From positions 5,828,001 through 5,892,000 of the forward strand of contig NZ_CP030047.1 of NCBI RefSeq assembly GCF_015291625.1: a DNA stretch of 64,000 nucleotides. The letters are read 5' to 3'. Within the stretch, counting starts at the first letter, position 1, and every line of letters begins with the position of its first letter. Under the pieces are notes generated by a model, which worked only from the letters and a program-made list of their open reading frames with translations, ran no database searches and was not told where the DNA came from. This DNA comes from Bradyrhizobium sp. CCBAU 53421. GTDB taxonomy: Bacteria; Pseudomonadota; Alphaproteobacteria; Rhizobiales; Xanthobacteraceae. The translations under genes and the position numbers were made by a program. Of the stretch, positions 48,032 to 64,000 are shown in pieces.

Positions 48032-50055
48032 CAGAAAGCTTGCCCAATGCTGACATAGATCGCGTAACGGCTGTCGCCGGGGCGAGGGTTCAGCGGTGTC
48101 GCAACATCGAGGCGAATCGGACCGACCGGCGTGAGATAGCGCAAGCCAAGTCCCGCCCCGTAGCCGACATAGTCGTCGAAGCCTGGCAGGGACGATCGGG
48201 AGGCGGTGCCAAAGTCGAAGAACGGCACGAGGCCGATGGTGGGCGTGATCCTCACCCGCACTTCGGCGGAGCCCTCGATCAGGCTGCGACCGCCGGTGAT
48301 TTGACCGAACATCATCGGCGAAATGGTGTTGAAGCCGTAACCGCGCACGGATCCGCCGCCGCCGGCGAAGAAGCGATGCGCATCCGGAATCTCGGCAAGC
48401 GGCGCGCCCGCAAGCGAGCCAGCGGCCAACCGGCCCGCCAGAACGTAGTCCGCCTGCTCGTCGAGCGCATAGTAGGCCGATCCCGCGACCCGCGCTTCGA
48501 ACAGATCGATCGTGGAACCCATCAGCTTCGGATACGCATTGACGGTCGCCGCGAGGCGGACACCACGCGTGGGGTCGAGCGGATTGTCTGTCGTGTCGTA
48601 CCGCCCGGTTGCGGTGAGGCCGATCAGCGTCGCATCGACCCGCCCCAACACGTCCTGCGATTTTGATTGCTCGACCTGAAGACCGGCCTGCAGCGATGCC
48701 GCCTCCGAAAAGCGATGGATCACGCCGAACGTGCCGCGCACCGTATCGTCGGTGTACCCCCCGAGGTCGTTGTTGCCGACACGCTCGCGGAACGCAGTGG
48801 CCTCGATCAAAAGATCGTTGGCCGTGCCGAACAGACCCGGCTTGATGAACGTGCCGGTAAATCGTGCGCCGAAATCCGAGGCGCGGAGATTATTGAAGCC
48901 GGTGAAGGACGTGCCGTCGATCCGTTGCAGGAGCGAAGCGGACGCTTCGAGCCTCAGGCGCTCGCCGCCGCCGAATATGTTCCGATCCTCGTAATAGCCT
49001 GCAATGCCGGGACCATCGACGGTGGAATATTTTGCCGAGAGGCCCACCGCGTGCCGCGGCCTTTCCGTCAAATCGATGAAGACCGGCAGATTGCCATTGG
49101 CATCGAGCTTGTCGGCCTCGCGGACGCGAACTCCCCCGATGGCCGGGATCTTTGCGATCGAGGTTTTCGCCAAGGCGAGCCGCTCTGGCGAATAGGGCTC
49201 GCCTTCTCTCAGATAGACATGCGTGGCCACCACTCGCGGATCGACGTCTCCGCCCGAGACCGTGACGGCGCCGATACCGGCCTTGGGGCCCGCATCGACC
49301 CGCAGCCGAAGGTCCATCGCGGCGGCCGCATGATCGACGGTGGCCTTGACGTCGGCGATCTTCGCAAGCGGATGTCCGTTACTGCGGAACCAGTCAACAA
49401 GCTTCACCTGCGCGGCGCGCAGGTCGGCCGAGATCGCCGGCTCGCCGGACCGCAGCGCAAAGGCGCGGCGCGGCAACCCATGCGGCGCCTGGTCGCGCGG
49501 GTAGTCCACATCGACGGTGCGCAGCTTGAACAACGGGCCGAGACGCGCAATGACCTTGATGGGAACGACCGCCCGATTGCGAAAGCTATCGGCCCGGCGC
49601 GCCGCGGCGGCGAGCCCCACCTCGTCGGGAGACACTGGAACTCCGTCCACCGTGAGATCGATCTGGGCGTTGTAGCGGCCAAGCCCCCAGAGGGCGTCGA
49701 GCAGCGGATTGATATCGGCCTGAAGGCGGCGCACGAGACCTTCGCCGTCCGGCGGCGGTTCCTGTCGAAGGCGATAGGTGCCGGAGGCATCGCGCAACAT
49801 CTGCTCGGCATCGCTCTCGTCCTTGCCATCCGGCGTCTTGGCTTCGATCTCCAGCCGATAGGACAGTGTCGTGGCGCTGACCGGCGGCGGATCGTCGGAA
49901 CCGAACAGGCCAAAGAAATCCAGCGCGTGAGCCTGTTCGCACAGCGAGCAACCGACCACGGCGACGCAAGCCGAACGCAGAATGCGGCGCGTCGCCGCGA
50001 TGAAATGCCTTCGCCTCGCCCGCCCCGGCAAAGGTGGCAGACGTCGTCGCACCAC
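48031..50055 (-). CDS. tamA: TamA, Omp85-family outer-membrane protein
   Basis: A BamA-like protein of about 675 aa. A signal peptide (RILRSACVAVVGCSLCEQAHA) is followed by three POTRA domains (about 55-330) and the 16-strand barrel. The Omp85 motif is visible late as GSVRGYGFNTISP (VRGY/F), with a terminal Phe (ISIGQAF-like SIGQAF). The start is uncertain: no ATG is available before the signal peptide. Two adjacent GTG codons at 50055/50052 are proposed; the frame is open to 50157. Operon with tamB. Confidence 0.85.
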   Translation of the reverse strand: MVRRRLPPLPGRARRRHFIAATRRILRSACVAVVGCSLCEQAHALDFFGLFGSDDPPPVSATTLSYRLEIEAKTPDGKDESDAEQMLRDASGTYRLRQEPPPDGEGLVRRLQADINPLLDALWGLGRYNAQIDLTVDGVPVSPDEVGLAAAARRADSFRNRAVVPIKVIARLGPLFKLRTVDVDYPRDQAPHGLPRRAFALRSGEPAISADLRAAQVKLVDWFRSNGHPLAKIADVKATVDHAAAAMDLRLRVDAGPKAGIGAVTVSGGDVDPRVVATHVYLREGEPYSPERLALAKTSIAKIPAIGGVRVREADKLDANGNLPVFIDLTERPRHAVGLSAKYSTVDGPGIAGYYEDRNIFGGGERLRLEASASLLQRIDGTSFTGFNNLRASDFGARFTGTFIKPGLFGTANDLLIEATAFRERVGNNDLGGYTDDTVRGTFGVIHRFSEAASLQAGLQVEQSKSQDVLGRVDATLIGLTATGRYDTTDNPLDPTRGVRLAATVNAYPKLMGSTIDLFEARVAGSAYYALDEQADYVLAGRLAAGSLAGAPLAEIPDAHRFFAGGGGSVRGYGFNTISPMMFGQITGGRSLIEGSAEVRVRITPTIGLVPFFDFGTASRSSLPGFDDYVGYGAGLGLRYLTPVGPIRLDVATPLNPRPGDSRYAIYVSIGQAF

Positions 50056-50596
50056 GATCTGCTTGATTGTTCCGCTCCGCGCTCGCCTGTTGACACAACC
50101 CGAGCCTTTGCAACTCAGATCCGGCGATCCCCTGTCTCCGCGTTCAACAGGCACCACACGCGAAATTGATAGCCATCATGATGGACAATGTAGGGCATTG
50201 CCGAAATTGCCTTCGTAGTCCTCAATTGATTGAGCAAAGACCACGACGTTCAAGAAAGCTCCGCGATTCAAATGCACTCCACGAAACATTTTTCTTCACG
50301 CTGTGTGCCGCATCCGTTGAGCACCGCGCACGCGTCCTGCGATTGTGGCGTTTGAACGGCATTCCGTACCGAGTTCCCGCTTGCGGCGGAGCATCTACGT
50401 CGGAACACGATCGAGAAACTTCAAAGATCGGCGATGCTGGGTACTGACTTTTCGCTGCACAAAGCTGCGCGTCTGCACCAAGCCGCTGGAAATCATCGGC
50501 GGGCGTCGGTTGCCATCGAGGTTTCGCCCCCTCACACAGTTCGTTCTTCAGCTCGGCACAATACCGGTAGCAACGGCAATGAATCGTTGGCTTCGT
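50056..50596. other. Gene-free stretch upstream of tamA
   Basis: About 540 bases between tamA and a small minus-strand gene. Open frames on the plus strand have poor composition and no ribosome sites. The tamA promoter should lie here. No clear repeat or operator was found. Confidence 0.4.
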
Positions 50597-50782
50597 TCAG
50601 CTCGTCGTTGCCGCACTTCGCTCGAAGGGTTTGTTTTCTGCGATGAACCTTGCCGCCAGCACGAGAGCGCCCATCGAGAACTCCTTGCCATGCGCGGCGA
50701 TCATCCGCTCGGAAAGCTCGGCCAGCTCCTTGAAGTACTGATCTTTGCTGTCGGCTTCATTTAGCGATCGAGTAGACGTCAT
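50597..50782 (-). CDS. Small protein of unknown function, last gene of the post-activator unit
   Basis: A 61-aa acidic-to-neutral, mainly helical protein (ELAELSERMIAAHGKEFSMG, then ALVLAARFIAENK). A very strong ribosome site, TAGGAGGG, lies just before the ATG at 50782. It is 48 bases downstream of the beta-propeller gene on the same strand and probably belongs to that transcript. No family recognised. Confidence 0.6.
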   Translation of the reverse strand: MTSTRSLNEADSKDQYFKELAELSERMIAAHGKEFSMGALVLAARFIAENKPFERSAATTS

Positions 50783-50830
50783 GGTTTCCCTCCTAATGAC
50801 GCGGAAGACTTTCGCTCCGGCGCGGACCCG

Positions 50831-51940
50831 CTATTTGAAAATGTGGGAGGGAAACGTAATGATCGCCGCCTCCCCGTTGTCCGAGCCGAATGCAAGATGC
50901 TGGCCATCGGCCGACCATCGAAGTGCGTGGACAGCGCCCCCGCCAGGTGGCTTGACGACCAGTTCGTCCGATACCCCGATCTTGGCGACAACCACCATGC
51001 CGTCCCCGTAACCTGCCGCGATGAGCCGACCCCCGGCGTGCATATCCACCGTCTCGACGAGTACGAGCCTGGCACGGCCTGTCGCAATGCTGGCCGGCCG
51101 CTCGCTGTCGTCCCTGAGACTGGAAATGTCCCACGCGATTATTCGATAAGCTCCGCTCGTGACGAGGACACGGGAGTCCGCGCTCCACGCCAGGGATGAA
51201 GTGCTCCCAGGATAGCTGGAAATCCGGACGATCCGGGCATCGGCAAGGCGGATCAAAACGACGCCTGCCCCCAAGATGGATGCGGCCAACCAGCTTCCAT
51301 CAGGACTCCACGCCAAATTGGAGATTGGGCCGAGCTCGAATGAAGCCACCGGCTCTGGTCGTGCCCCGAAGGCACGAACAAGCAGGCAATCGTCGACTCC
51401 CATCGCAAAGCGCCGACCGTCCCTTGATACAGCCAGTGCCGATGCATTCCCGCCAGCGCGCTCCTGGAGCCAGCCAACTTCGCCATTGGGATCGTAAAAT
51501 ACGACCGATCCGCCGGAAGCGGCCAGAATGCCCCCGGCCTGCACCGGGGCGACGAGATCGATTGCGGACCCATGATCCGCTATCAGATGCGTGACGCCGG
51601 GTGGCGACACGCCAAGCAGCCGGCCGCGCTCATTTGCGACAAAGCCCGACGGCCCGATCGAGGCGAGATGAAGCGGCGCGTCGCTGATGACCACCTTCGT
51701 CAATGGGGGCACCGGTTTCCGCCGCGGCGAGATTGTGGCGCGGCCTCCGTCCAGCGCGATACGACAGCGATCCTCCGGCGGGTCGGTATCGGTCAACGGA
51801 GCGATTGCCAGCGCGCCATCGGTGAGCGCAAATGCGACTCCGTCTCCGGCGAAGGCCGTACCGGTGACGGGCGCTCCCACCATCCAGTGCCGTCCGAGCA
51901 AATCATAAAGCGCTGCAGTCTCTGCTTCCATCGTGTCCAT
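50831..51940 (-). CDS. WD40-like beta-propeller protein
   Basis: A 369-aa protein built from beta-propeller blades: repeated units such as ISNLAWSPDGSWLAASILGAG, STSSLAWSADSRVLVTSG and VHALRWSADGQHLAFGSDNG carry the S-x-D-G-x-x-[LI]-A pattern. Seven blades fit the length. No signal peptide, so cytoplasmic, most likely a scaffold or binding protein. The ATG at 51940 has AGGTGAG upstream and lies eight bases after the previous stop. Downstream of the coiled-coil gene in a tight operon behind the diiron monooxygenase activator. Confidence 0.75.
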   Translation of the reverse strand: MDTMEAETAALYDLLGRHWMVGAPVTGTAFAGDGVAFALTDGALAIAPLTDTDPPEDRCRIALDGGRATISPRRKPVPPLTKVVISDAPLHLASIGPSGFVANERGRLLGVSPPGVTHLIADHGSAIDLVAPVQAGGILAASGGSVVFYDPNGEVGWLQERAGGNASALAVSRDGRRFAMGVDDCLLVRAFGARPEPVASFELGPISNLAWSPDGSWLAASILGAGVVLIRLADARIVRISSYPGSTSSLAWSADSRVLVTSGAYRIIAWDISSLRDDSERPASIATGRARLVLVETVDMHAGGRLIAAGYGDGMVVVAKIGVSDELVVKPPGGGAVHALRWSADGQHLAFGSDNGEAAIITFPSHIFK

Positions 51941-51948
51941 CGAACGTC

Positions 51949-52257
51949 TCACCTGCCGGCGGCAATCCGCCTGTCAAGATCTTCAAGGCGTCGTTCCAGT
52001 ACGGCGCATTGAGCGTCGCATGCTGCCATCCCGGCAGTTGCGTTTTTCAGGCGCGAGCGTGCTTCATCAAGCGCCTCGGCGAGCGCATGCGAGGCGCCTG
52101 TCGTGGCAATCTCACGCTCAATCTCCTGAATCTCGAACTCCGCCCCACCGCCAAGCTGAAGGTTCAGAAGATTGCGCGATTGAACGGCCGATATCTCCTG
52201 AACGACGGCCAATCGTTCCTTCAGCACTTCGATCAGGATCGGAGGATCGTCGCTCAT
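51949..52257 (-). CDS. Small coiled-coil protein of unknown function
   Basis: A 102-aa protein predicted to be two long helices (PPILIEVLKERLAVVQEIS and ALAEALDEARSRLKNATAGM, then VLERRLEDLDRRIA) with heptad spacing. It overlaps the preceding gene by four bases. Two Cys occur near the C-terminus (ACDAQC). No family recognised; the shape suggests a structural or adaptor role with its neighbours. Confidence 0.6.
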   Translation of the reverse strand: MSDDPPILIEVLKERLAVVQEISAVQSRNLLNLQLGGGAEFEIQEIEREIATTGASHALAEALDEARSRLKNATAGMAACDAQCAVLERRLEDLDRRIAAGR

Positions 52258-52703
52258 GCGTCCGCCTCGATCTGAGTCAGGATCCGCTGCAGGCCTCCGA
52301 CACCGGATACAAAGCGTTGCTGCGCGTCATTGATGTGAGATTGCAGGGAGTCCCACAGATCGACCCTTAGCAACCGCGCCGGATCGCCGGCCATCGTCTC
52401 GATGGCCTGAAGGCCGAACTGGTGCCGTAAGCCGATTCCCTTCAAGACGAATTCCGAAAGCTCGCGTGCATGCGTTTCGACGAAGGGACGCAATAACGGA
52501 TGCGCGCCGTAACTGATGTCGCGCTTTGCAAGTTCGACCTCGATGAACGCGATGAAATGCCTAACCAGCAGATTCTGGCTTTCGCCGAGCAGTTGCACCA
52601 CGAAAGTGACGTCGCGGTCTGCGCGCGCAAGGATCTGCGATGCGATTGCCGCAGCCCTGGTCGTCCCCTCCCCGCCGCTCTGCTCTTCCCAGATAGCCGC
52701 CAT
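52254..52703 (-). CDS. Helical protein of unknown function
   Basis: A 149-aa all-helical protein. The stretch VVQLLGESQNLLVRHFIAFIEVELAKRD and a later LWDSLQSHINDAQQRFVSGVG look amphipathic, vaguely like phasin or four-helix-bundle proteins, but no assignment is safe. It begins 15 bases past the sigma-54 activator stop and overlaps the coiled-coil gene by four bases. It is the first gene of a unit of three or four that appears tied to the activator transcript. Confidence 0.6.
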   Translation of the reverse strand: MAAIWEEQSGGEGTTRAAAIASQILARADRDVTFVVQLLGESQNLLVRHFIAFIEVELAKRDISYGAHPLLRPFVETHARELSEFVLKGIGLRHQFGLQAIETMAGDPARLLRVDLWDSLQSHINDAQQRFVSGVGGLQRILTQIEADA

Positions 52704-52717
52704 GCCTCATCCCGCCT

Positions 52718-54775
52718 TCAGGTCCGGGAACGGTATTGGTGCAATTTTCGATACAGTGTGGCGCGCGAAAGCCCGAGCTTCTCGGCAGCGGCGGCAATGT
52801 TACCACCAGCATTCGCGACCGCCCTCTCGATGGCACGCCGTTCCACTTCGTCGAAACGCGCAATCTCGTCGCCTTCCGATCCCGTTGCGCTATGCGCCGC
52901 CTGCACGGACACCGAGGAAGGTTCAGCCGACGCCGCTTCCGCGAAATCCTCCGGCAAATCTCTGGGAGCGACGATGCCGGTGATCGTCATCAGCACGAGG
53001 TTCTCGACCAGATTGCGCAGTTCGCGAACATTCCCCGGCCAGCTATAGCGCCGCAGCAACTCCATCGTCGTTGCCTCGAAATGTAGCGGTTGGGTGCTGT
53101 AGGTCTCGGCAAATTGCCTGTTGAAATGATCGATCAAAATATCGATATCGCCCAGCCGCTCACGAAGTGGCGGGATGGTGAACTTGACGACACCGATCCG
53201 GAAGTACAGGTCCTTGCGAAAACGTCCCTCCGCCACTTCCTGCTTCAGATTCCGATTGGTCGACGCTACGAGTCGGACGTCCACAGGTCGCGCCTTGCTG
53301 TCACCAAGCCTGTACACCGCGCGCTCCTCCAGCACACGGAGCAGGTAAGGCTGCAAGTCCATCGGCATCTCGCCGATCTCGTCAAGGCTGAGCACGCCGC
53401 CATTGGCGAACTCAAACCGCCCGGGCCTGCCCTCGCGCGTAGCGCCGGTATAAGCGCCCGGCGCATGCCCGAACAATTCGCCGCCGAGAAGCTCCTTGGA
53501 GACTGCACCGCAATTGAAGGCAATGAACGGCTCCTTGCCCGTATTCTGACTTGCGGCGTGAACCAGACGGGCGAAGAGTTCCTTGCCGACGCCAGTCTCA
53601 CCCTCGAGCAGGATTGCCGTTCGTCCAAGTGCCGCCCGCTCAATCTTTTCGATCGTTTGCACCAACGCGTCACTGCATCCAACGATCGCTTCCTTGGCCG
53701 AGACAAGTGCGGCGCGGGCTGCTGGCGACATCTGGGACCGGGCAAGACTGGCGCGTGGCTTCGCCACGAGCACAAGCATCGCCCCCTTCACCACGCCGTC
53801 GACCACCAACGGCTCGATCCGCTGCTCGCGCAGTTCCTCGGGCAGCCCTTTGGCGAGGTCTCTCGCCAGAAAGCCCTCGTCACTTGGGAGAAGCCGCTGG
53901 CCGATGCTCAAGTCGTGCGACTGCGCAATCCGGTGCCAGCGCACGGATGCCATGTCGTTGTGGTGAATGACGCGGCCGAACCGGTCGAGAATGACGACCC
54001 CGTCAGCACTGTTCATTCCCGGCATTCGGGAAATGCTCGCCTCGAGAAGCCGCATTCTCTCGATGCGGACCTTTTCCGAGAGCGCCAGTTCGATGTGATG
54101 GGCCGCGACCACCGCCAAGGCCACATTGTGCCGGTGAAAGATTGCCTGAGGTCCGGAAAAGTCTACGATGCCGATGATGCTGCCGTCTATCGGACTACGA
54201 ATGGGGCTACCGACACAAGTCCATGCCTTGATACCCTCGGAGAAATGCTCGGCCGCATGGACATGAACCGGCTTTCCCGTGACCAGCGCCGTGCCAATGC
54301 CATTGGTGCCGGTGACCGCTTCACCCCAGGCCGCGCCGGCTTCCAGGCGAATATCGTGCCCTGCGTCAATGGTCCGCCGATCGCCCCCGACCTCCAGCAC
54401 GACGCCGTTCCTGTCGGTGATGACGACCATCGTCGCGGCATCACCAAGCACCTCGGCAATGCGGCGGAAGGTCTCGGCGCTCGAACCAAGCAGGTCATCG
54501 TTCTTCAAACGCAGTTCATAGAGATCGTCCGGCGAGGCGAGGAGATTACTGCCCTTACCACGAGCATCGACCCCGGACTTGACACTGCGTTGCCATGACT
54601 CTTCGATGAGGCCGCGCACCGGAGCGTTTTCGCGCCTCAGGTCTCCGAAGGTCAGGAAATTTTCCCATGCCTTGTTGGTTTCGCCCTCATCGTATGGCCG
54701 CCCCTGCTCCGCGTCCGAAGGTTTGTAGCCTTCCAGGGAAAACGGCGGCTTGGCCATGAGCGTTTCCGTCAGCAT
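52718..54775 (-). CDS. Sigma-54-dependent activator, AcoR/MimR type
   Basis: A 685-aa enhancer-binding protein. An N-terminal GAF-type sensor (about residues 75-240, with TNGIGTALVTGKPVHVHAAEHF as in AcoR relatives) and a PAS-like segment (VVILDRFGRVIHHNDMA) precede the AAA+ domain: GETGVGKELFARLVH (Walker A), a GAYTGA loop contacting sigma-54 and LSLDEIGEMP (Walker B). A Fis-type helix-turn-helix closes it (NIAAAAEKLGLSRATLYRKL). Start ATG 54775 or 54757. It probably activates the monooxygenase operon in response to substrate, as for MimR-type regulators. Confidence 0.9.
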   Translation of the reverse strand: MLTETLMAKPPFSLEGYKPSDAEQGRPYDEGETNKAWENFLTFGDLRRENAPVRGLIEESWQRSVKSGVDARGKGSNLLASPDDLYELRLKNDDLLGSSAETFRRIAEVLGDAATMVVITDRNGVVLEVGGDRRTIDAGHDIRLEAGAAWGEAVTGTNGIGTALVTGKPVHVHAAEHFSEGIKAWTCVGSPIRSPIDGSIIGIVDFSGPQAIFHRHNVALAVVAAHHIELALSEKVRIERMRLLEASISRMPGMNSADGVVILDRFGRVIHHNDMASVRWHRIAQSHDLSIGQRLLPSDEGFLARDLAKGLPEELREQRIEPLVVDGVVKGAMLVLVAKPRASLARSQMSPAARAALVSAKEAIVGCSDALVQTIEKIERAALGRTAILLEGETGVGKELFARLVHAASQNTGKEPFIAFNCGAVSKELLGGELFGHAPGAYTGATREGRPGRFEFANGGVLSLDEIGEMPMDLQPYLLRVLEERAVYRLGDSKARPVDVRLVASTNRNLKQEVAEGRFRKDLYFRIGVVKFTIPPLRERLGDIDILIDHFNRQFAETYSTQPLHFEATTMELLRRYSWPGNVRELRNLVENLVLMTITGIVAPRDLPEDFAEAASAEPSSVSVQAAHSATGSEGDEIARFDEVERRAIERAVANAGGNIAAAAEKLGLSRATLYRKLHQYRSRT

Positions 54776-54878
54776 TGGAGCACCATACGTCCGTTGGCAA
54801 ACAGCAACCCGATCGGCAAACACGAACTGAGCCGGATCCCAGCAGGGCCGTTCTCCCTGCAGGCTCCGCTCACGCAGA

Positions 54879-55373
54879 TCATTCGACGCTTCTGGCGATC
54901 GCGTCCAGGCCGAGGCGGCCTGAGATGATCTGTTCCAAGTGGGCTTCCGACGTCTCGTCGGGCACACTCACTCCCTCAAGGTCGGCCAGGACCTTGTGCA
55001 ATTCGTCGTCCAGCGGCTCGAAGATCCCGTTCTCCCGTGTCGCCAGAGCGAAGTATCGCGATTGGCCGTTGCCGCGCAGTTCGCCGACAAAATCGAGCTG
55101 CCGCCCCGATGCGAGATCGGCGATCACGACGCGACCGTTATGGCTGATCCGCACATAAGGCTCGACCTCTTTTGGGCGAGCCGGCGGCGTGGACCAGAGC
55201 TTGCCCGACGGCTGGGGCTGCGGAGGCGGCGTCGGGTTGCGCAATTGCTGCCAACGCCCGAGTGTCAGATGATTGGCGAGCGCGTTGATCGTCGTGCGGT
55301 TCTTCTGAAGGAAGTCTTTGGCCGCCACCTCTTCCCGGTGCGGACCGTCGCGCTTGGAGATGATGTAGACCAT
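54879..55373 (-). CDS. Unknown 164-aa protein in the monooxygenase locus
   Basis: No known family recognised. It opens MVYIISKRDGPHREEVAAKD, has a Pro-rich linker (PTPPPQPQPSG) around residue 55, and a possible small beta-domain (VRISHNGRVVIADLASGRQLDF, GNGQSRYFALATRENGIFE). GGGAGG precedes the ATG at 55373. It lies between the aquaporin and the activator, all on the same strand, so a role tied to the monooxygenase is likely but undefined. Confidence 0.6.
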   Translation of the reverse strand: MVYIISKRDGPHREEVAAKDFLQKNRTTINALANHLTLGRWQQLRNPTPPPQPQPSGKLWSTPPARPKEVEPYVRISHNGRVVIADLASGRQLDFVGELRGNGQSRYFALATRENGIFEPLDDELHKVLADLEGVSVPDETSEAHLEQIISGRLGLDAIARSVE

Positions 55374-55513
55374 GTGCCTTTTCCTCCCGCCCGGCTGATC
55401 GGATGAGCCTGGAGGCTTGTTACACTGCCTCCTTCGGCTCATGCCGGGACTTTCAAGATTGTAACTCGTTCCGGATCGTTGTCACGGTGCAATCAATCAC
55501 GCGATCGCGAACG

Positions 55514-56194
55514 TCACGCCGTCGCCACCATCTGGCGCGTCACCCCCGCCTTGAAGACGTAACCGGACAGTGCGGCCCCCAGGCACGGCGCCACAAAATA
55601 GAGCCACACCTGTGACAGCGCATCGGAGCCAGCAAACAATGCGGGCCCCAGCGAGCGCGCCGGATTGACCGATGAGCCCGACACGGCAATGCCGGCGAGA
55701 TGGATCGCGACCAACGTCAGACCGATCACCAACCCGGCATAAGCAGACGCCGCTCCGTTTTGCGTCGCACCAAGGATCACCGTCAGAAACAGGAACGTTG
55801 CCGACGCTTCGAACACGAACGCGGACAGAACACCGTACTGGCCCCAGCCATTCTGGCCAAAGCCGTTCGCCGCGACGTCGTAGCCTCCGACCTTGCCTTC
55901 GGCGATGAGGTACAGCACGGCCGCAGCCGCGATTCCCCCGACGAACTGCGCAACGATATAGCCGGAGAAATCCCGCGGCGACATCCGCCCGGCGACGAGC
56001 ATCCCGAGGCTGACCGCCGGATTGAGATGAGCACCGGAGATATGTCCGATCGAATAGGCCATTGCCACCACGGACAGGCCGAATGCGAACGCCACGCCCA
56101 GCAAGCCGACCTCGGCCCGCATGAAGATCACGGTCGCGCAGCCAAAGAACACCAGCGTGAACGTACCGATGAATTCCGCGACATACTTATGCAT
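55514..56194 (-). CDS. Aquaporin, AqpZ-like
   Basis: A six-helix MIP-family channel of 226 aa. Both pore motifs are present: SGAHLNPAVSLG and SGSSVNPARSLGPAL. A His occurs in the fifth helix (AIHLAGIAV) at the position of the AqpZ selectivity-filter His, where glycerol channels have Gly; this predicts a water-selective pore. GGGAG precedes the ATG. It lies between groEL and the unknown 164-aa gene inside the monooxygenase operon, an uncommon companion. Confidence 0.85.
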   Translation of the reverse strand: MHKYVAEFIGTFTLVFFGCATVIFMRAEVGLLGVAFAFGLSVVAMAYSIGHISGAHLNPAVSLGMLVAGRMSPRDFSGYIVAQFVGGIAAAAVLYLIAEGKVGGYDVAANGFGQNGWGQYGVLSAFVFEASATFLFLTVILGATQNGAASAYAGLVIGLTLVAIHLAGIAVSGSSVNPARSLGPALFAGSDALSQVWLYFVAPCLGAALSGYVFKAGVTRQMVATA

Positions 56195-56304
56195 AACTCC
56201 CCCTCCCTGGTGATGAACTCGATATCGAGATTTCTGTCCGCCTGGTCGCGGCGCACGCCGTCTCCTGAGACGGCTCGGTGGAACGCGGGCCGCGTACGCG
56301 TGCC

Positions 56305-57936
56305 TCAAGCGCGGCCAAGCTTCTCCGCTCCGCCGCCCAATGCCGGCCCCTGTGTCGGATCGATATACTCCGGCACATCGGCAATCAGGGTATTGGTGGT
56401 CAGCACCAGCGTGGCGACGGAAGCGGCGTTTCGAAGCGCCGTATAGGTCACCCGGACGGGGTCGACGATGCCGGCCGACACCATGTCGATGAATACGCCG
56501 TTGGCGGCATCGAACCCGACGCCCGACCGGGAGCTCTGCAGATCGGCCACGACCTTCTCCGCATCATGGCCGGCATTCCGTGCAATGAAAGCGGCGGGAC
56601 GCGACAGGGTTTCACGCACCAGCTTGATGCCCTCTCCCAGATCGCCATTGATGTTGCCGAGCGCGCGCGTCACCACCGGCGCGCACTGCGCCAACGCGGT
56701 GCCGCCACCGGGCACGATGCCCTCCTCGGCCGCGGCCCGCGCCGCACTGAGCGCATCGTCGATCAACTGGATCGTCCGCTTCTGCTCCACCGGAGTGACG
56801 CCGCCTGCCAGGATCACGGCGGTCCCGCCCGACAGCTTCGCCAGCCGCTCCTTGAGCTTGTCCTGTTCGATGTTCGGCGGTGCCAGATCGTGCTGCTTGG
56901 CCACCTGCTGGCGCCGCGCCGCGATCGCCGCATCGTCGCCGCCGCCCCGAATGATCACCGTTTCCCGCGCGCTGGCCCGCACCTGCCGTGCGGTGCCGAG
57001 ATCGTCAAGGCTGGTCTCTTCCAGTCTGCCGCCAAGCTCGCGCGCGATGACCCGGCCACCGGTGATGATGGCGAGATCGTCCATCATTGCCTTGCGCCAA
57101 TGACCATAATCAGGCGGATTGACCACGAGGATCTTGCCGCGATTGTCATCGCCGAGCAGCGTGACGACCACTTCCGGCGCGATCTCCTCGGCGACGATGA
57201 CAAGCGGTCGCCCGGTCGCGGCGACCGTCGCACGCACCGCCGCCAGCTCGGCCGGCGTTTTGATCTTCAAGTCGGTCAGGAGGATGTAGGGCTGATCGAG
57301 CACCACCTCCATCTTTTCGACATCCGTCACCATGTGATGGGAGATGTAACCGCGATCGAACGACATGCCTTCGACGACTTCGAGCGTCGTACTGGTCGTC
57401 AGCCCGTAGTCGGAGCTGATGATGCCATCCTTTCCGACGCGCTGGACTGCCTCCGCAATCAGTCCGCCCAGATGGGCGTCGGTTGACGCAATCGTGGCCA
57501 CCGCCTCCAGCGTCTTGCGGTCCGAAACCGCAATTGCCGAGCTCTTCAGGGTTTCGACGACAACCTCGACGGCCCGGTCGATCCCTTTGCAGAGATCGAC
57601 GGCCTTGGCGCCGCGCTCCAGTGCTGCGACGCCTCCCTGGATGAGGCCATTTGCAAGCACCATGGCGGTGGTCGTGCCGTCGCCGGCGACCTCGTTGGTC
57701 TGCATCGAGACCTCGCGCACCACCTGCGCACCCATGTTCTCGAAGCGATCAGGCAGCTCGATCTCAGAGGCAATGGTGACGCCATCGCGGGAGACGATGG
57801 GCGTGCCGATCGGCCTGTCGACCATCGCGTTCATGCCCTTGGGACCGAGGGTCGATTCGACCGCTGCTGCAAGCTTCTGGACCCCGCGCGCGAGAGCACG
57901 GCGGGCTTCGGTATGATGTAGTAATACTTTCGGCAT
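56305..57936 (-). CDS. Divergent GroEL chaperonin, MimG-like
   Basis: A 543-aa Hsp60. ATP-site motifs GPKGMNAMVD and AGDGTTTAMVLA and the late GIVPGGGTAL are intact. The usual Gly-Gly-Met tail is replaced by LGGGAEKLGRA and the apical domain is divergent, as in the accessory GroEL encoded with propane-type diiron monooxygenases. In Mycobacterium, MimG is needed for productive folding of the large hydroxylase subunit. No groES is present. ATG at 57936 follows GGGAG by eight bases. Confidence 0.9.
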   Translation of the reverse strand: MPKVLLHHTEARRALARGVQKLAAAVESTLGPKGMNAMVDRPIGTPIVSRDGVTIASEIELPDRFENMGAQVVREVSMQTNEVAGDGTTTAMVLANGLIQGGVAALERGAKAVDLCKGIDRAVEVVVETLKSSAIAVSDRKTLEAVATIASTDAHLGGLIAEAVQRVGKDGIISSDYGLTTSTTLEVVEGMSFDRGYISHHMVTDVEKMEVVLDQPYILLTDLKIKTPAELAAVRATVAATGRPLVIVAEEIAPEVVVTLLGDDNRGKILVVNPPDYGHWRKAMMDDLAIITGGRVIARELGGRLEETSLDDLGTARQVRASARETVIIRGGGDDAAIAARRQQVAKQHDLAPPNIEQDKLKERLAKLSGGTAVILAGGVTPVEQKRTIQLIDDALSAARAAAEEGIVPGGGTALAQCAPVVTRALGNINGDLGEGIKLVRETLSRPAAFIARNAGHDAEKVVADLQSSRSGVGFDAANGVFIDMVSAGIVDPVRVTYTALRNAASVATLVLTTNTLIADVPEYIDPTQGPALGGGAEKLGRA

Positions 57937-58058
57937 TGGCTTCACTCCCAGGCGGTCGGATCTTGTTGTCTGATTGGGCGGACTTGCTGACCGCTCCGGT
58001 TCTTGGCGCTTCCGGGCAGCGCGCTAAGCGCGCTCCCACGCTTCTAGCTTCTCAAGGG

Positions 58059-58862
58059 TCAGGGGCTGCCGGACGGAGCAGCACATCGGCTGCCGCAGCC
58101 CCCGCACGGTGACGGCGTCGGTCCAGGCTTGCCGTCGTCGAATTCGCGATTGCGGACGGCAAGCAGGCCTCTGCACAATGAGCTGTTGAACTCCATATTG
58201 ATGCGCACTCCCCGCAACCGCTGCAGATAGGACGCCAGTTCGTGCCGTTTGATAGGAGCTCCCTCGTAGGCCACAAACGCACGATCCTCCGGGAGGCAGG
58301 CGAGGCCTGCTTCAATCAAAAGCTCGCGATAGCGCGGCTTCTGGCGCGCAACGTCCGGCGAAGCGAACTCGACCTCGTCAAAGCTACGCAGACTCATCCG
58401 GCAGATCTCCGGATCCTCATAGCCCAGCCCCCGCAAGGCCAGTATCATGACCTCCTGGCGCCGCTCGAACGCCTTGCGGCGGAACTTATCCCGCAATTCG
58501 TCAAGCGAGCCTCCAGGCGCAAACTCCCTGAGTGCATCGGCGAATGACCTGCCTTCGCGGACACCACGGTTGATCTCGTCTGCGACCATATGGTCCCGAA
58601 GCCGCGGCCGCGCCTCGCGAACCCACGGCAGCGACGACACCGCCCGACGCATGTCGTCGGCCATGAGGAACGCGAAGTTCGCCGAACACCAGTAGGTCGG
58701 CAACCGAAACACGATATCGACATCGCCATCGTCATGGACGGTAACATACTCGACGAATCCGAGATCGGTCACCGACTCGTCGAGTTCGGGGTCTGTGACC
58801 AACGCGAGGCGCTGCCACACCTCGCTGGTCCTTCGGTCATGCTTCAAGAGCGGCGCATTCAT
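58059..58862 (-). CDS. DUF59/MIP18-family protein with Cys-rich tail
   Basis: A 267-aa protein. The N-terminal 100 residues are of the DUF59 (iron-sulfur assembly) type: LALVTDPELDESVTDLGFVEYV and PTYWCSANFAFLMADDMR with a conserved Cys. The middle part is helical. The tail ends in CGGCGSRC, a metal-binding cluster. Homologues are encoded in Prm/Mim-type loci, where they may help assemble the diiron or 2Fe-2S centres; that role is inferred. Six bases separate it from the amidohydrolase gene. Confidence 0.8.
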   Translation of the reverse strand: MNAPLLKHDRRTSEVWQRLALVTDPELDESVTDLGFVEYVTVHDDGDVDIVFRLPTYWCSANFAFLMADDMRRAVSSLPWVREARPRLRDHMVADEINRGVREGRSFADALREFAPGGSLDELRDKFRRKAFERRQEVMILALRGLGYEDPEICRMSLRSFDEVEFASPDVARQKPRYRELLIEAGLACLPEDRAFVAYEGAPIKRHELASYLQRLRGVRINMEFNSSLCRGLLAVRNREFDDGKPGPTPSPCGGCGSRCAAPSGSP

Positions 58863-58868
58863 GTGATG

Positions 58869-59891
58869 TCATCCCGCCGCGGTCGCGTAAGCACCCTTGG
58901 CGAGCTTTGCCTTCTGCGCCTCGACATCCACGCCATAGAGGCGCGCGGCGTTGAGACCGAGGATCTTCTTCTTGGCTTGCGGCGTCAGATCGACACCGTG
59001 CTCCTGCTTCAGATCCTCCGGCAGCTCGAAGTTCCAGAACTTCTCGACCAGCCAGCGGGGCGTCCAGATGGCGTAGTCGCTGCCGAACAGAATCTTGTCC
59101 TCGCCGACCCAGAACAGCAATTCGCTGATCACTTCGGCGAAATACCGTGGACGTCCGTGAATGAACGGAAGCGCGACCGCCAGGCCGCCATAGACGTTGG
59201 TCTCCTGGACGGCAATCCAGCAGAAGTCGTCCAGCCGGGGCAGCCCGCAATGCTCGATGATGAAGTTCAGGCCCTGGAAGTCGGTCGCCGCGTGATCGAC
59301 GTCGTGAACATCGAACGCATCCTTGTCCAGCGGGATGATGGTCGGCCCCTTGTGGACGTGGATGTTGGTGATACCGAGCTTCTGGCAAAGCTCGAAGCAA
59401 CGATAAGCGTTCGGATCGGTGAGCTTCCAGCCCCGCGACTCGCCCTTCCATTCGGCGGTGTATAGCTTGACGCCCTTGATGCCGAACGTTTCCTTCATGT
59501 AGTGAATATATTCCAGTGCCCGCTCGCCATCACGCGGATCAAACGCGCCGTTGACGATGAAGCGGTCCTTGTGCTTCTTCGCCATCTCGGCGTTGCGGTC
59601 GATGGTATTGAAGCCGTTCTTGTAGAATTCCGTGAGATAGGTCGATTGCACGATGGCCATGTCGTCCGGGCCGTCGACGAACAGATCGCGGTACATCTGC
59701 TCCGCGCTGTATTTCTCGAATTGCTCCTTGGGCCAGAGCTTGTCCTTTGGACTGAGCGAGCTGTGGTAGGCGTAGAAGCAATCAATGAACTGCTTGCCGT
59801 GAATGTTGAGTTGGTTCGCCGGACTGCCGTCCCAGAAGTGGGTGTGACCGTCGATGACGAAGATTTCCTCGCCCGTGGGAGTTATGAACAT
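58869..59891 (-). CDS. Amidohydrolase family 2 protein of the monooxygenase locus
   Basis: A TIM-barrel metal hydrolase or decarboxylase of 340 aa. The metal motif is VIDGHTHFWDG (HxH type), with later His (VHKG, IEHCGLPR) and the catalytic Asp in FGSDYAIWTP. Genes of this family occur in the same place in mycobacterial mim and prm clusters; the reaction there is unknown, and a role in maturation has been proposed. The ATG at 59891 has GGAG eight bases upstream; upstream extension to 59975 lacks support. Confidence 0.85.
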   Translation of the reverse strand: MFITPTGEEIFVIDGHTHFWDGSPANQLNIHGKQFIDCFYAYHSSLSPKDKLWPKEQFEKYSAEQMYRDLFVDGPDDMAIVQSTYLTEFYKNGFNTIDRNAEMAKKHKDRFIVNGAFDPRDGERALEYIHYMKETFGIKGVKLYTAEWKGESRGWKLTDPNAYRCFELCQKLGITNIHVHKGPTIIPLDKDAFDVHDVDHAATDFQGLNFIIEHCGLPRLDDFCWIAVQETNVYGGLAVALPFIHGRPRYFAEVISELLFWVGEDKILFGSDYAIWTPRWLVEKFWNFELPEDLKQEHGVDLTPQAKKKILGLNAARLYGVDVEAQKAKLAKGAYATAAG

Positions 59892-59967
59892 GATGGTCTC
59901 CAGGAATTTGATAAGCTCTGTTCGATCAATCCACGCGTCGTAGCTGCGCGAACACTTTGGAAGCAGC

Positions 59968-59995
59968 GGGGCCACACCGTTGAGGATGCGGCCCC
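59968..59995 (-). other. Stem-loop between coupling protein and amidohydrolase genes
   Basis: GGGGCC/GGCCCC arms separated by 16 bases, 13 bases past the coupling-protein stop, in a 117-base gap that is the largest between the enzyme genes. No T-run. It may attenuate transcription after the structural genes. Confidence 0.4.
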
Positions 59996-60008: not shown

Positions 60009-60380
60009 TCACTCAATGTATTCGAAGACCTCATCCATGTTTCCGAACAGTGTCACCGTGTTGTCGTCGATGCGCACCATCCGGCCGTAATGGGTCGAGG
60101 TATTCACTTCGAATATCTCGGCCGTCATGTCCTTTCCGAGGATGTCGCTGATCTCGTCCATCTTGAAGATCAGCTTGCCCTCGCCGTCGATGCGGATCAG
60201 GGCCGGCTGGTAGGTCACGGTCACGTTCGGCTTCTTGCCCATGAATTCAGCGATGGCGCGCGCCTCGACGCTGTCGTTCATGGTGACGCCGCACTGATGG
60301 GAAATCGTCTGTTCGAAACGGAGATCTCCCATCTTCTGGAAGATGTTCTGGTTGGTCGCACTTCGTGAAGCAACGGACAT
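60009..60380 (-). CDS. mimD: Diiron monooxygenase coupling (effector) protein
   Basis: A 123-aa cofactor-free protein of the MmoB/DmpM family that docks on the hydroxylase and gates substrate and oxygen. It contains NDSVEARAIAEFMGKKPNVTVTYQ and the family stretch ALIRIDGEGKLIFKMDEIS. It lies six bases after the small-subunit gene in the operon. Confidence 0.9.
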   Translation of the reverse strand: MSVASRSATNQNIFQKMGDLRFEQTISHQCGVTMNDSVEARAIAEFMGKKPNVTVTYQPALIRIDGEGKLIFKMDEISDILGKDMTAEIFEVNTSTHYGRMVRIDDNTVTLFGNMDEVFEYIE

Positions 60381-60386
60381 TGCAAT

Positions 60387-61457
60387 TTACTCCTTGGGAA
60401 GGACGAGACCGAGCTCGCCGAGAATCTTCTTGATGCGCTCGACCGACTGCGCGCGGACGTCGGCGTACTGCACCGGTTTCGAATGTGGCTGCGACCAGAT
60501 CGGCTGCAGTCCGGCGGCCGCCTTGCTGGCCAGCGCCACGTGCTTGTTCACCCAGCCCTGGAACAGCTTCTTGTTATACGCGGCATGCTGATTGTCGGTC
60601 ACCAGCAGATGCATCAGGTCGATCGTGTTCGCGAGATTGCGCTCATAGTCGGCCTCGGCCGCCGAAATGACCGCCGGCGTGATGAAATCGCCGTTCGGCG
60701 AGCCGACCTGCATCAGGAAGCCGCTGCGGAACAGCTCGCCGACCAGTGGCTCGAACACGATGTTGGTGGCGAAGTACTGCTCCAGATAGTCGGCCGACCC
60801 CATGATCGATTCGATCGATTCGCGGGTGCCCTGCCAGCCCTTGTCCTCCAGCCATGCCCGCTTGCCCGCGGCGTCGTCGAAGCCCGGAATGTCCATTCCG
60901 ATCTCGGCGAGATAGAGCGTGATGTCCTGGGCCAGACGAAGCTTGTAGGACGAGTTCGTCAGGGTCGCGTTGTTGATCATCTGGGTGTAGCCGTAGCGCT
61001 GAGCCTGCATCAGCGACGTGCCGAGCCCGAACTCGGCATGTTTCCACGCGCCGAGATGGTTTTGCAGGATCTTGACCCAGGCCTTGTCGAAGCCCTTCGG
61101 CGCGCCGGACTTGCGGCCGTTGGCGATCACCGATTGGACCATGGTCTCGATCTTGGATTGGCGCTGGTAGTGGGTGCGCTCCCACTCCTGGTCGGGCGCA
61201 CGGAAGGCGTGCCAATTCGAGCTCAGCGCGGCCGTGTTGTCCTTGGTGTAGGCGCCTTTCCCGTTGGGGAAGGAGATGATCCAGTCCTGCAGCAGGTAGC
61301 GCTCCGGGTCCGGCTGAACATCTACGGTCACATCCTCATAGTGCGTCGCCCGCTTGCTGCGGGGCTCGAAATACCGGTACTTGCGGCTGTCCGAATCCGG
61401 AAACACCGCAGCGCCTGCTGCACCGGATTTCGCTGGAACACTTTGAACGGCAGTCAT
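60387..61457 (-). CDS. mimC: Diiron monooxygenase hydroxylase, small (beta) subunit
   Basis: A 356-aa helical subunit paired with the large subunit. It shows RSKRATHYEDVTVDVQPDPERYLLQDW, typical of beta subunits of propane, phenol and related monooxygenases, and lacks the full set of iron ligands. AGGAGGAAG precedes the ATG at 61457. It stabilises the hydroxylase core. Confidence 0.9.
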   Translation of the reverse strand: MTAVQSVPAKSGAAGAAVFPDSDSRKYRYFEPRSKRATHYEDVTVDVQPDPERYLLQDWIISFPNGKGAYTKDNTAALSSNWHAFRAPDQEWERTHYQRQSKIETMVQSVIANGRKSGAPKGFDKAWVKILQNHLGAWKHAEFGLGTSLMQAQRYGYTQMINNATLTNSSYKLRLAQDITLYLAEIGMDIPGFDDAAGKRAWLEDKGWQGTRESIESIMGSADYLEQYFATNIVFEPLVGELFRSGFLMQVGSPNGDFITPAVISAAEADYERNLANTIDLMHLLVTDNQHAAYNKKLFQGWVNKHVALASKAAAGLQPIWSQPHSKPVQYADVRAQSVERIKKILGELGLVLPKE

Positions 61458-61516
61458 GGTCGTCTTCCTCCTCCCTTGGTGGGCTCTACAAAAGGCACGG
61501 TCGCGATTTGAAACTC

Positions 61517-62557
61517 TCAGCTGGTGGCTGGTGTGAACTTGTCGAAGAAGATGCGATCCGACTCGACGTCGTTCATCTGCAGCACCGGCACCAGCGCCTC
61601 GATCATCGGCGACGGTCCGCACGCATAGACATCGACGTCTTCGCCATATCCCGCGCTGCGAAGGTGCGCTCCGACGGCCTCGTGCACGAAGCCCTTTGCC
61701 CCACCCCAGGACGTATCGTCGGCCGCATGCGAGAGTACCGGGACGAAGCTGAACTCCGGATGCCTGGCGGCGAGTTCTGCGAAGCGATCGAGATAGAAGA
61801 GATCGTTGCGCGTCCGCGCTCCATAGAAGAAGTGCACCGGCCGTGCTTCGCCGGACTCGATGTGATCGTGCAGGATCGACCACAGCGGCGACATTCCCGA
61901 TCCGCCGCCGACCAGGACTATGGCTCCGGCCCGGTTTTCTCGCCGGAAGCAGGTCCCGTAGGGTCCGCGGAGTCCGACCGAGGTTCCGACGGCGAGCTCT
62001 CCGTCGAGCCGGGAGGAGAAGCGTCCGTTCGGATACTTTTTGATGATGAATGCGAGCTTTTCGCCCTCGATCGGCGAATTTGCCATGGAAAACGAGCGCG
62101 TAATCGTCTCTGCCCCCGGAAGCGTGATGTCGACATATTGACCCGCCCAGAACTTCAGAGGTTGCGCGAGCGATATCTCGAGGAGCCGGATGTCGTGGGT
62201 CAGCGCGGAGACGCTCGTGACTGTGCCCGTGAAGTCCCTGACCGGGATCGATTTCGACAGCACCTCCTCGTCATAGTTGAGGAGCTCCACTTCGAGATCC
62301 GAATAGGCCAGAGTCCGGCACAGCAGGATGTAGTCCTGACCTCGCTCCATCTCGTTGAGGGCGAACGTCGAATATTTCTTGAGCTCTACTTCGCCTCCGG
62401 TAAGGACGCATTTGCACGCCGAGCACTGTCCCTCCTTGCAACCATGCGGCAGTGCGATGCCTTGGCGGAAGGCGGCGTCAAGAACGGTCTCGTTCTCCTC
62501 GACCTCGAATTCTATGCCTACCGGTTGCAGGCGAACGACATTAGCGGGCGTGCCCAT
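61517..62557 (-). CDS. mimB: Diiron monooxygenase NADH reductase
   Basis: The electron donor of the system, 346 aa. An N-terminal plant-type ferredoxin domain binds a 2Fe-2S cluster (CKEGQCSACKC with a later Cys in ILLCRT). The FAD domain has TRSFSMANSP and the NAD domain VGGGSGMSPLWSI and ACGPSPMIEA. It passes electrons from NADH to the hydroxylase. GAGGAGG precedes the ATG at 62557. Confidence 0.9.
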   Translation of the reverse strand: MGTPANVVRLQPVGIEFEVEENETVLDAAFRQGIALPHGCKEGQCSACKCVLTGGEVELKKYSTFALNEMERGQDYILLCRTLAYSDLEVELLNYDEEVLSKSIPVRDFTGTVTSVSALTHDIRLLEISLAQPLKFWAGQYVDITLPGAETITRSFSMANSPIEGEKLAFIIKKYPNGRFSSRLDGELAVGTSVGLRGPYGTCFRRENRAGAIVLVGGGSGMSPLWSILHDHIESGEARPVHFFYGARTRNDLFYLDRFAELAARHPEFSFVPVLSHAADDTSWGGAKGFVHEAVGAHLRSAGYGEDVDVYACGPSPMIEALVPVLQMNDVESDRIFFDKFTPATS

Positions 62558-62639: not shown

Positions 62640-64000
62640 TTAGTTGCAGGGATTGATGGTGAATCCCTTGCGATACTCAGCGAGGTGCTTCTCCCGGTCG
62701 GCCGGGCTCATCTCCCGCAGCGTGAGCAGCGGGCTCTTCAGGATGTGGCCGCGGACGTCGTTGAGCGTCCACATTTCCTTCTCGTCGAAGCGCAGGTGCG
62801 GCTGGGCGACCAGGGTCTTGCCATCTGTGCGCACGAAGCCGAGATCCTTGATGGCGTCGGCGATATCCACGTTGTGGTAGACGCTTTCCCATTCGCGACG
62901 GCCGCTGAACCGTCCCATCGCCGGGGTCGGACGCCCCTGGTATTCGCCGGCGAACGCTTCGACGGCCGTCCACCGGTCGAGCTCATGGGCGAACGTGTAG
63001 AGCTTGCCGTCGATCTCGCCCGTGACCATGTCCTCGCGGATCAGGCAGGGCACCAGGCACGACCAGCAACGATGCGGATAGACGTAGCCGACATCGCTGT
63101 TGAAGAGGATGTTGGTCTGGCCGCGATGCGACAGCTTCTCGTACCATTTCCAGAAGTCGCCGAACTGCGCATACCAGCCGGGATACTTGTGCTCGAACCA
63201 CTCGAAGTCCTTGTCGGTCTGGGCCTCGATGCGCCAGAAGTTGGCCGACCAGCCAACCGCGAAGAACTGCGCGACCTTGTGGACGTAGTGCTTCTCGGTC
63301 AGTCGCTTCCAGGCAGTCTGGACGTCGTCATGATGGATCTTGATGCCGTACTTCTCGAGCGGCAGCATGTAGGTGCGATAATAATCCTCGAAGATCCAGC
63401 GGTGCCACATCTCCGCATAGGACTCCTTGGTCTTGTCGCGGTTCGTGGTGCCGTATTCAATGAAGGTTCCGATCGCCGCGTCGACGATTGCGTGGTTCTG
63501 CCAGAATGCATAGCGCATGTCGCGCTCCAGCAGCAGGTGGTTCTCCGGCTCCTTCAGCATCGACATCAGCATCGAGTGGCCGTTGCCGATGTGCCGGCTC
63601 TCATCCGACTGAACTGACAGGAACACCGTCGGCAATGCATAGTCACCGTTGCGCGCGGCTTCCGACGGCATGGCGACGAACAACGTGTTGGTGAACGCGG
63701 TTTCGGCGACCACGGTCAGATACACGTTCGCGGAGGTGATTGCGTCGCCGGTGATGAAGCCTTCACCGAACTGCCTGCCGATCGTGGTGGCGTAGCACTT
63801 TCCGAATGCCTCCTCCGTGATATCGAAGCCGGCCGGATCGATGTAGTTCTCCATGTACCACTTCTTGAGATTCATCTGGATCGTCGAGTGACGGAACTCG
63901 TCGACCATCTGCATCGTGAAGCCGGTGCGAAGATCTTCACCAGGAGCGAGGCGGCCGACCATCGCCATGGATCGCGCGGCCGAAATTTCCGGAAACGGGA
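62640..64000 (-). CDS. mimA: Diiron monooxygenase hydroxylase, large (alpha) subunit (5' end outside window)
   Basis: The catalytic subunit, visible for its last 453 residues; the frame stays open to the window edge (with residues EISAARS before the first visible Met), so the N-terminus lies beyond. Diiron ligands seen are VDEFRHSTIQ (ExxH), the Glu in VVAETAFTN and SDESRHIGNGH (ExxH); the first Glu must be upstream. The sequence suits the Mim/Prm group of propane, acetone and phenol monooxygenases. The sigma-54 promoter should lie beyond the window. Confidence 0.9.
   Translation of the reverse strand, partial: PFPEISAARSMAMVGRLAPGEDLRTGFTMQMVDEFRHSTIQMNLKKWYMENYIDPAGFDITEEAFGKCYATTIGRQFGEGFITGDAITSANVYLTVVAETAFTNTLFVAMPSEAARNGDYALPTVFLSVQSDESRHIGNGHSMLMSMLKEPENHLLLERDMRYAFWQNHAIVDAAIGTFIEYGTTNRDKTKESYAEMWHRWIFEDYYRTYMLPLEKYGIKIHHDDVQTAWKRLTEKHYVHKVAQFFAVGWSANFWRIEAQTDKDFEWFEHKYPGWYAQFGDFWKWYEKLSHRGQTNILFNSDVGYVYPHRCWSCLVPCLIREDMVTGEIDGKLYTFAHELDRWTAVEAFAGEYQGRPTPAMGRFSGRREWESVYHNVDIADAIKDLGFVRTDGKTLVAQPHLRFDEKEMWTLNDVRGHILKSPLLTLREMSPADREKHLAEYRKGFTINPCN

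Follow-up and report, generated by a model that had tools for sequence, protein, structure and literature searches.

A candidate accessory module of four genes, hel, cc, wd40, and s61, linked to Mim/Prm-type monooxygenase clusters of proteobacteria

Diiron hydroxylases can be encoded together with small or chaperone-like accessory products, as is the case for MmoD, MmoG, and the gamma subunit of soluble methane monooxygenase. The described systems closest to the locus analysed here are the group 5 clusters, represented by MimABCD of Mycobacterium and by PrmABCD of Gordonia, Rhodococcus, and Methylocella, with a dedicated GroEL. Mim/Prm enzymes have been tied to the metabolism of propane and acetone, and a related diiron monooxygenase to the degradation of chlorinated alkanes, in passages of two papers (PMC8394569, PMC11057499) that also describe a dedicated chaperonin as needed or helpful for related enzymes, and helper genes (e.g., a chaperonin) as needed for the activity of such enzymes in other hosts. 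A third paper (PMC9213486) marks amidohydrolase and iron-sulfur assembly genes in a cluster drawing, according to its Fig. 5 legend. Our locus has in common with the group 5 clusters the mimABCD gene order, GroEL, and the amidohydrolase and iron-sulfur assembly genes.

The mim locus and its four-gene unit

The window (the whole stretch of 64,000 nucleotides that was analysed) belongs to a 9.26-Mb Bradyrhizobium genome. Read downwards from position 64000, its minus strand carries the following genes in this order.

62640..64000, minus strand: mimA, MimA-type hydroxylase alpha subunit; N terminus beyond the window end
61517..62557, minus strand: mimB, MimB-type reductase
60387..61500, minus strand: mimC, MimC-type hydroxylase beta subunit; start approximate
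60009..60380, minus strand: mimD, MimD-type coupling protein; MmoB/DmpM family in annotated relatives
58869..59975, minus strand: amidohydrolase 2 family protein
58059..58862, minus strand: PaaD/MIP18-like iron-sulfur assembly protein
56305..57945, minus strand: GroEL-like chaperonin, MimG type
55514-56308, minus strand: aquaporin-type gene after GroEL, named from an annotated relative
54879..55442, minus strand: p187, 187-aa protein; neighbour of the unit and consistent partner upstream of the activator
52718..54967, minus strand: activator with GAF, sigma-54 interaction, and Fis-HTH domains; neighbour, not a consistent partner of the unit
52254..52703, minus strand: hel, 149-aa predicted helical protein; narrowest layer of the unit
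51949..52257, minus strand: cc, 102-aa coiled-coil-like protein; with s61, the apparent core of the unit
50831..51952, minus strand: wd40, WD40 beta-propeller; 373 aa from GTG 51952 or 369 aa from ATG 51940
50597..50782, minus strand: s61, 61-aa protein with a strong ribosome site; most widely kept member

In tblastn searches against annotated plasmid clusters, genes of the locus matched those named monooxygenase alpha, 2Fe-2S reductase, beta, MmoB/DmpM, and GroEL. The ABCD gene order (alpha subunit, reductase, beta subunit, coupling protein) and the GroEL gene place the host cluster with the Mim/Prm systems, the group 5 number being assigned by resemblance rather than from a tree of all groups. 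Downstream of the unit (43682-50157) are minus-strand ORFs of 708 and 1449 aa, which may be a TamA/TamB pair.

All four ORFs that the initial annotation had grouped as a unit were recovered, tightly packed on the minus strand, with closely agreeing spacing. The activator stop (52718) and the hel start (52703) are separated by 14 bases, versus the 15 first noted; the hel and cc reading frames share 4 bases, as described; and the 8-base gap originally placed between cc and wd40 holds for a wd40 start at ATG 51940, while a start at GTG 51952 gives a 4-base overlap. Another 48 bases lie between the wd40 stop and the s61 ATG, which is preceded by AGGAGGG, in line with the strong ribosome site that had been proposed for this gene. 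A purine-rich site precedes the s61 ATG in most orthologues listed (locus L076 is without it), and this mostly kept strong ribosome site suggests that s61 encodes an abundant protein.

Conservation of each of the four genes as a family extends to roughly 20–40% identity, indicating that they are real genes, and the helical, coiled-coil, and propeller character first assigned to the three larger products agrees with our results. The AlphaFold model of hel is helical except for two 3-residue strands (mean pLDDT 81.5), with no significant structural neighbour in Foldseek's own list; the cc product is probably a coiled coil, judging from its sequence and from sub-threshold Pfam matches; and wd40 qualifies as a prokaryotic WD40 protein, with repeats above the Pfam cut-offs (PF00400, 43.3 bits versus 27; PF12894, ANAPC4_WD40, 38.5 versus 22.9). 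No Pfam or NCBIfam family was matched at cut-off by hel, cc, or s61, nor any Pfam family by their divergent orthologues, and the hel and s61 profiles gave no sequence match with a meaningful E-value to any solved structure in the PDB. None of the four proteins has a DNA-binding or known sensor domain at the Pfam or NCBIfam cut-offs. The single hel sequence retrieved 90 relatives (E 0.001) and a wider hel profile 507 (E 0.01), while s61 retrieved 3582 (E 0.1; best 120 of 3582 listed), a count of sequence matches regardless of genomic context. Phage libraries, searched with hel, cc, and s61, held nothing meaningful for these three. An anti-phage defence system was considered and discarded, as PADLOC returned one marginal match for the four proteins (wd40 versus a HEAT-ARM model, E 0.073).

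Co-occurrence with mimA and layers of the module

All searches for mimA used the 442-aa part of the protein that lies inside the window. Among 297 genomes of the order, mimA was found in 20 and hel in 17 (at most 12 hel candidates scored per genome); both were present in 17, mimA alone in 3, and hel alone in none (Fisher p 6e-25, related genomes being non-independent draws). The three mimA genomes without hel (G186, G201, and G215) were also negative with the wider hel profile and all candidates scored; s61 nevertheless adjoins mimA in G186 and G201, and cc, wd40, and s61 are all present in G215. In a sample of 319 genomes of the phylum, mimA and hel were both found in the same 4, and three of 367 genomes of the class carried mimA (G000, G931, and G636), of which G931 has s61 and a cc-like gene and G636 has mim genes but no module gene in the stretch searched. 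These order, phylum, and class samples give the unbiased counts; loci L016-L041 were picked for carrying hel, and 17 of these 26 are from Bradyrhizobium. In the corresponding contig scan with the hel family, mim genes were present at 24 of 26 loci; the remaining two, on contigs of 4.9 and 3.1 kb, hold hel, wd40, and activator-like sequence.

The s61 gene was searched for in 60 chosen genomes (25 with known mimA, 27 mimA-negative, and 8 without a mimA test) and was found in 23, all of them with mimA (19 from the order sample, G931 from the class sample, G005 and G017 from mapped regions, and G004, in which s61 lies upstream of a mimA). The two known-mimA genomes of this set that lack s61 are G636 and G226, where the contig ends inside the unit. 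The co-occurrence with Mim/Prm loci that the initial annotation had put forward was thus found for both hel and s61, and homologues mostly away from monooxygenase loci, the pattern that would have spoken against it, were not what we observed. One plasmid, from Phyllobacterium zundukense, has wd40 and s61, with no mim genes in the 24 kb read and ISL3 transposase genes on both sides; its initial call as a mim-bearing locus (L118) was false, the mimB-like match being annotated as a benzoate dioxygenase component. Skermanella has only s61 of the module. The enzyme also occurs without the unit: in Methylocella tundrae, Azospirillum oryzae, and the Rhodococcus JS3073 record, the stretch searched contains mim genes but none of the module, so the unit is clade-specific. 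Two clusters are decaying, namely those of Shinella HZN7 (L121), where mimA ends at an IS21 element, and Rhizobium CB3171 (L119), where just parts of mimA and wd40 match.

The four-gene set is the fullest form of the module, and smaller forms exist. In a tree of 59 MimC sequences (rows shorter than 330 aa, L041, L084, L118, L121, and the short or repeated stretches L001-L015, L042-L060, and L086-L108 left out), the 44 rows with hel all belong to a single clade of 48 rows (support 97/98), the other four of which have wd40 and s61, one of them at the damaged CB3171 locus. Outside this clade are two Caballeronia rows with wd40 and s61, five rows with s61 and no wd40 match, and four rows without any module gene. 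A cc profile that had not been trained on these loci matched directly upstream of s61 in L081 (E 3.5e-10), L075 (E 4e-9), and L114 (E 5e-6). Over the 23 loci to which it was applied, it gave matches in 11, a borderline result in L076 (E 0.15), and none in 11 (L030, L031, L037, L039, L113, L118, L119, L082, L110, L122, and L123), including the four (L082, L110, L122, and L123) that have no module gene at all. The simplest reading looks to be a core of cc and s61 to which wd40 and then hel were added, although losses would also be needed and the deep forks of the tree are weak.

Gene order, neighbours, and promoters

The gene-order survey included 63 loci called mim-bearing (L041, L084, and the short or repeated stretches L001-L015, L042-L060, and L086-L108 left out). 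The order hel, wd40, s61 was kept in 43 of the 43 loci holding all three genes, and wd40 and s61 were adjacent in 50 of 50. The initial annotation had tied the unit to the sigma-54 activator, which it follows in the window; this tie did not hold up when the position of the unit was compared at 50 loci. A partner of the activator should stay beside it upon rearrangement, whereas the unit adjoins it in 27/50 loci only (Bradyrhizobium, Ancylobacter, one Methylobacterium, and two further non-Bradyrhizobium genomes). At 22/50 loci the unit is near mimA and mostly divergent from it, with the activator distant, divergent, or undetected, and in the 23 loci where unit and activator are not adjacent, the best activator match in the stretch is 24–49% identical or absent. 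By comparison, p187, which has no Pfam or NCBIfam match, lies directly upstream of the activator in 35 of the 36 loci having both, and so moves with the activator as the four-gene unit does not; p187 may be the activator's true partner. Of the initial description, a four-gene unit co-occurring with Mim/Prm loci is supported and the activator tie is not; the scaffold or sensing complex that it suggested may apply.

The unit is linked to the hydroxylase rather than to the activator. Partial distance correlations, calculated from the 28 of 50 loci that were complete enough and that are non-independent, were higher for the hydroxylase than for the activator with wd40 (0.66 versus 0.43) and hel (0.76 versus 0.38) and pointed the other way with s61 (0.45 versus 0.67). 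Two Caballeronia plasmids, from Betaproteobacteria, have a cc-like gene (profile E 8e-9 and 1.6e-3), wd40, and s61 directly upstream of mimA on the same strand, and cc and s61 without wd40 lie upstream of mimA in L075, L081, and L114. Plasmids carry the mim cluster in several hosts.

Two further genes were observed near the unit. A fifth small gene, h90 (~86-102 aa), is found on the opposite strand between hel, or its place, and cc in many loci outside Bradyrhizobium (L040, L062, L063, L065, L069, L074, L077, L109, L112, L115, and L121); it was found neither in the genome of the window nor in three further Bradyrhizobium genomes with mim genes, and its weak relatives elsewhere, which form a short protein family with no visible link, were set aside. 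In all three Rhodobacterales plasmid loci read (L109, L112, and L116, from Paracoccus, Gemmobacter, and Ponticoccus, respectively), the mim cluster contains, next to the unit, an extra gene annotated as RNA polymerase sigma-54 factor, as though the plasmid supplied a sigma factor of its own.

Because a relaxed sigma-54 scan found 2.7 sites per kb in shuffled sequence, only a strict −24/−12 pattern was used, in the 1000 bases preceding the mimA match, the 600 preceding hel, and the 300 preceding cc and s61. Of 37 loci, 25 have a strict site before mimA; in a separate check of the window's own genome (L042), such a site lies ~340 bases before the likely mimA ATG. Strict sites before module genes numbered 0/47 for hel, 0/28 for cc, and 1/55 for s61 within these lengths. 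A sigma-54-like site ~108 bases before hel in Bradyrhizobium loci was discarded, as it falls in the activator coding sequence. L075 has a good sigma-54 site 557 bases before s61 and upstream of its cc, outside the stretches of the strict search, and its cc and s61 pair may thus be part of a sigma-54 unit. In the window, where all genes are on one strand, the unit could form the end of a long mim transcript. In divergent loci, the unit must use a promoter other than that of mim and, as the module is mostly without its own strict sigma-54 site, may not be co-induced with the enzyme there.

Candidate functions and comparison with known systems

In the searched genomes, the four genes nearly always accompany mimABCD, keep a fixed order, and lie beside the hydroxylase genes or, in the window's clade, beside the activator. 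Because they accompany almost exclusively the genes of one alkane/ketone-oxidising enzyme, they are probably its dedicated helpers. The reading we favour, tentatively and from comparative sequence data, is that hel, cc, wd40, and s61 form a dedicated accessory module, an assembly or scaffold complex of the proteobacterial Mim/Prm (group 5) hydroxylase. Their products would form one complex acting on the enzyme, in which the MimA/MimC hydroxylase, or an intermediate in its folding, would be bound by cc and s61, the WD40 propeller would provide a docking platform, and hel would be a further subunit; together with the GroEL of the cluster, this complex would help with assembling, holding, or positioning the hydroxylase in Gram-negative hosts. 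The enzyme side is placed first because the genes stay with the hydroxylase when activator, place, or host class changes, because the leanest form of the module adjoins mimA and s61 has its strong ribosome site, and because the hel and wd40 distances track the hydroxylase better than the activator. The dedicated chaperonin described as needed or helpful for related enzymes also speaks for it. It is weakened by the clusters of Methylocella tundrae, Azospirillum oryzae, Rhodococcus JS3073, and G636, which have mim genes without the module, by the s61 distances, which favour the activator, and by the lack of a structural relative of hel.

A regulatory or sensing complex, which would sense substrate, iron, or cell state and tune the sigma-54 activator or the mim promoter, appears rather unlikely and is the likeliest of the alternatives. 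A possible lack of co-induction in divergent loci would fit a regulator at least as well and is the main point for such a role, as the unit there faces the mimA promoter, mostly without a strict site of its own, as could be the case for a constitutive regulator; adjacency to the activator in 27 of the 50 loci compared and at so short a distance in the window, the s61 distances, and the sigma-54 factor genes of the three Rhodobacterales plasmids are also consistent with it. Yet the unit persists where the activator is different, distant, or undetected, the activator is already paired with p187, and the four proteins are without a DNA-binding or known sensor domain at cut-off. We consider it improbable that one or more of the small proteins (s61, cc, hel) serves as an additional hydroxylase subunit or binds the enzyme, comparable to the gamma subunit or MmoD in soluble methane monooxygenase. 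In its favour, none of the cluster genes could be identified as encoding a gamma subunit, the products are short and helical-looking, and s61 adjoins mimA in the leanest clusters; against it, the profiles of hel and s61 recover no solved structure by sequence at a meaningful E-value, none of these proteins reaches a Pfam cut-off, and related enzymes exist without these genes. Genes without a joint function that merely hitch-hike with the mim cluster would fit its plasmid location in several hosts and the loss of members in some loci (e.g., wd40 and cc in L031). Such passengers are very improbable given that the unit shifts its place relative to mimA and the activator yet remains in the cluster, across families and into Betaproteobacteria; among 63 loci called mim-bearing (one of them, L118, falsely, and many chosen for hel), the aquaporin gene was found in 11, as opposed to 51 for wd40 and 56 for s61.

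A broader form of the accessory-module reading is plausible, if somewhat less likely than not: the four products may make up one undescribed multi-protein machine (a cc and s61 core, a propeller platform, and a helical subunit), built stepwise in proteobacteria to make, hold, or cluster the Mim-type monooxygenase. If so, this machine would be the missing ingredient for expressing proteobacterial enzymes of the Mim group elsewhere. A conserved proteobacterial helper set, with three families outside the curated ones, would partly explain the need for helpers in foreign hosts, and the expected partner of the unit shifts from the activator to the hydroxylase.

The module genes resemble those for MmoD, MmoG, and the gamma subunit in encoding small accessory products beside diiron hydroxylase genes and differ from them in that hel and s61 have no meaningful profile match to a solved structure. 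The wd40 product is like other prokaryotic WD40 proteins in passing the Pfam WD40 cut-off and differs from them as an orthologue group with a constant place next to s61 in mim clusters; the further WD40 proteins listed from Bradyrhizobium are only ~29–38% identical to it over part or most of the length. In the literature searched, which covers few subscription journals, no paper joined SDIMO with WD40 or propane monooxygenase with a beta-propeller. Relative to the group 5 clusters, hel, cc, wd40, and s61 are additional here, none of them having been found in the loci read from Rhodococcus JS3073, Methylocella tundrae, and Azospirillum oryzae. The host monooxygenase system is a known one; its accessory module appears to be an undescribed addition.
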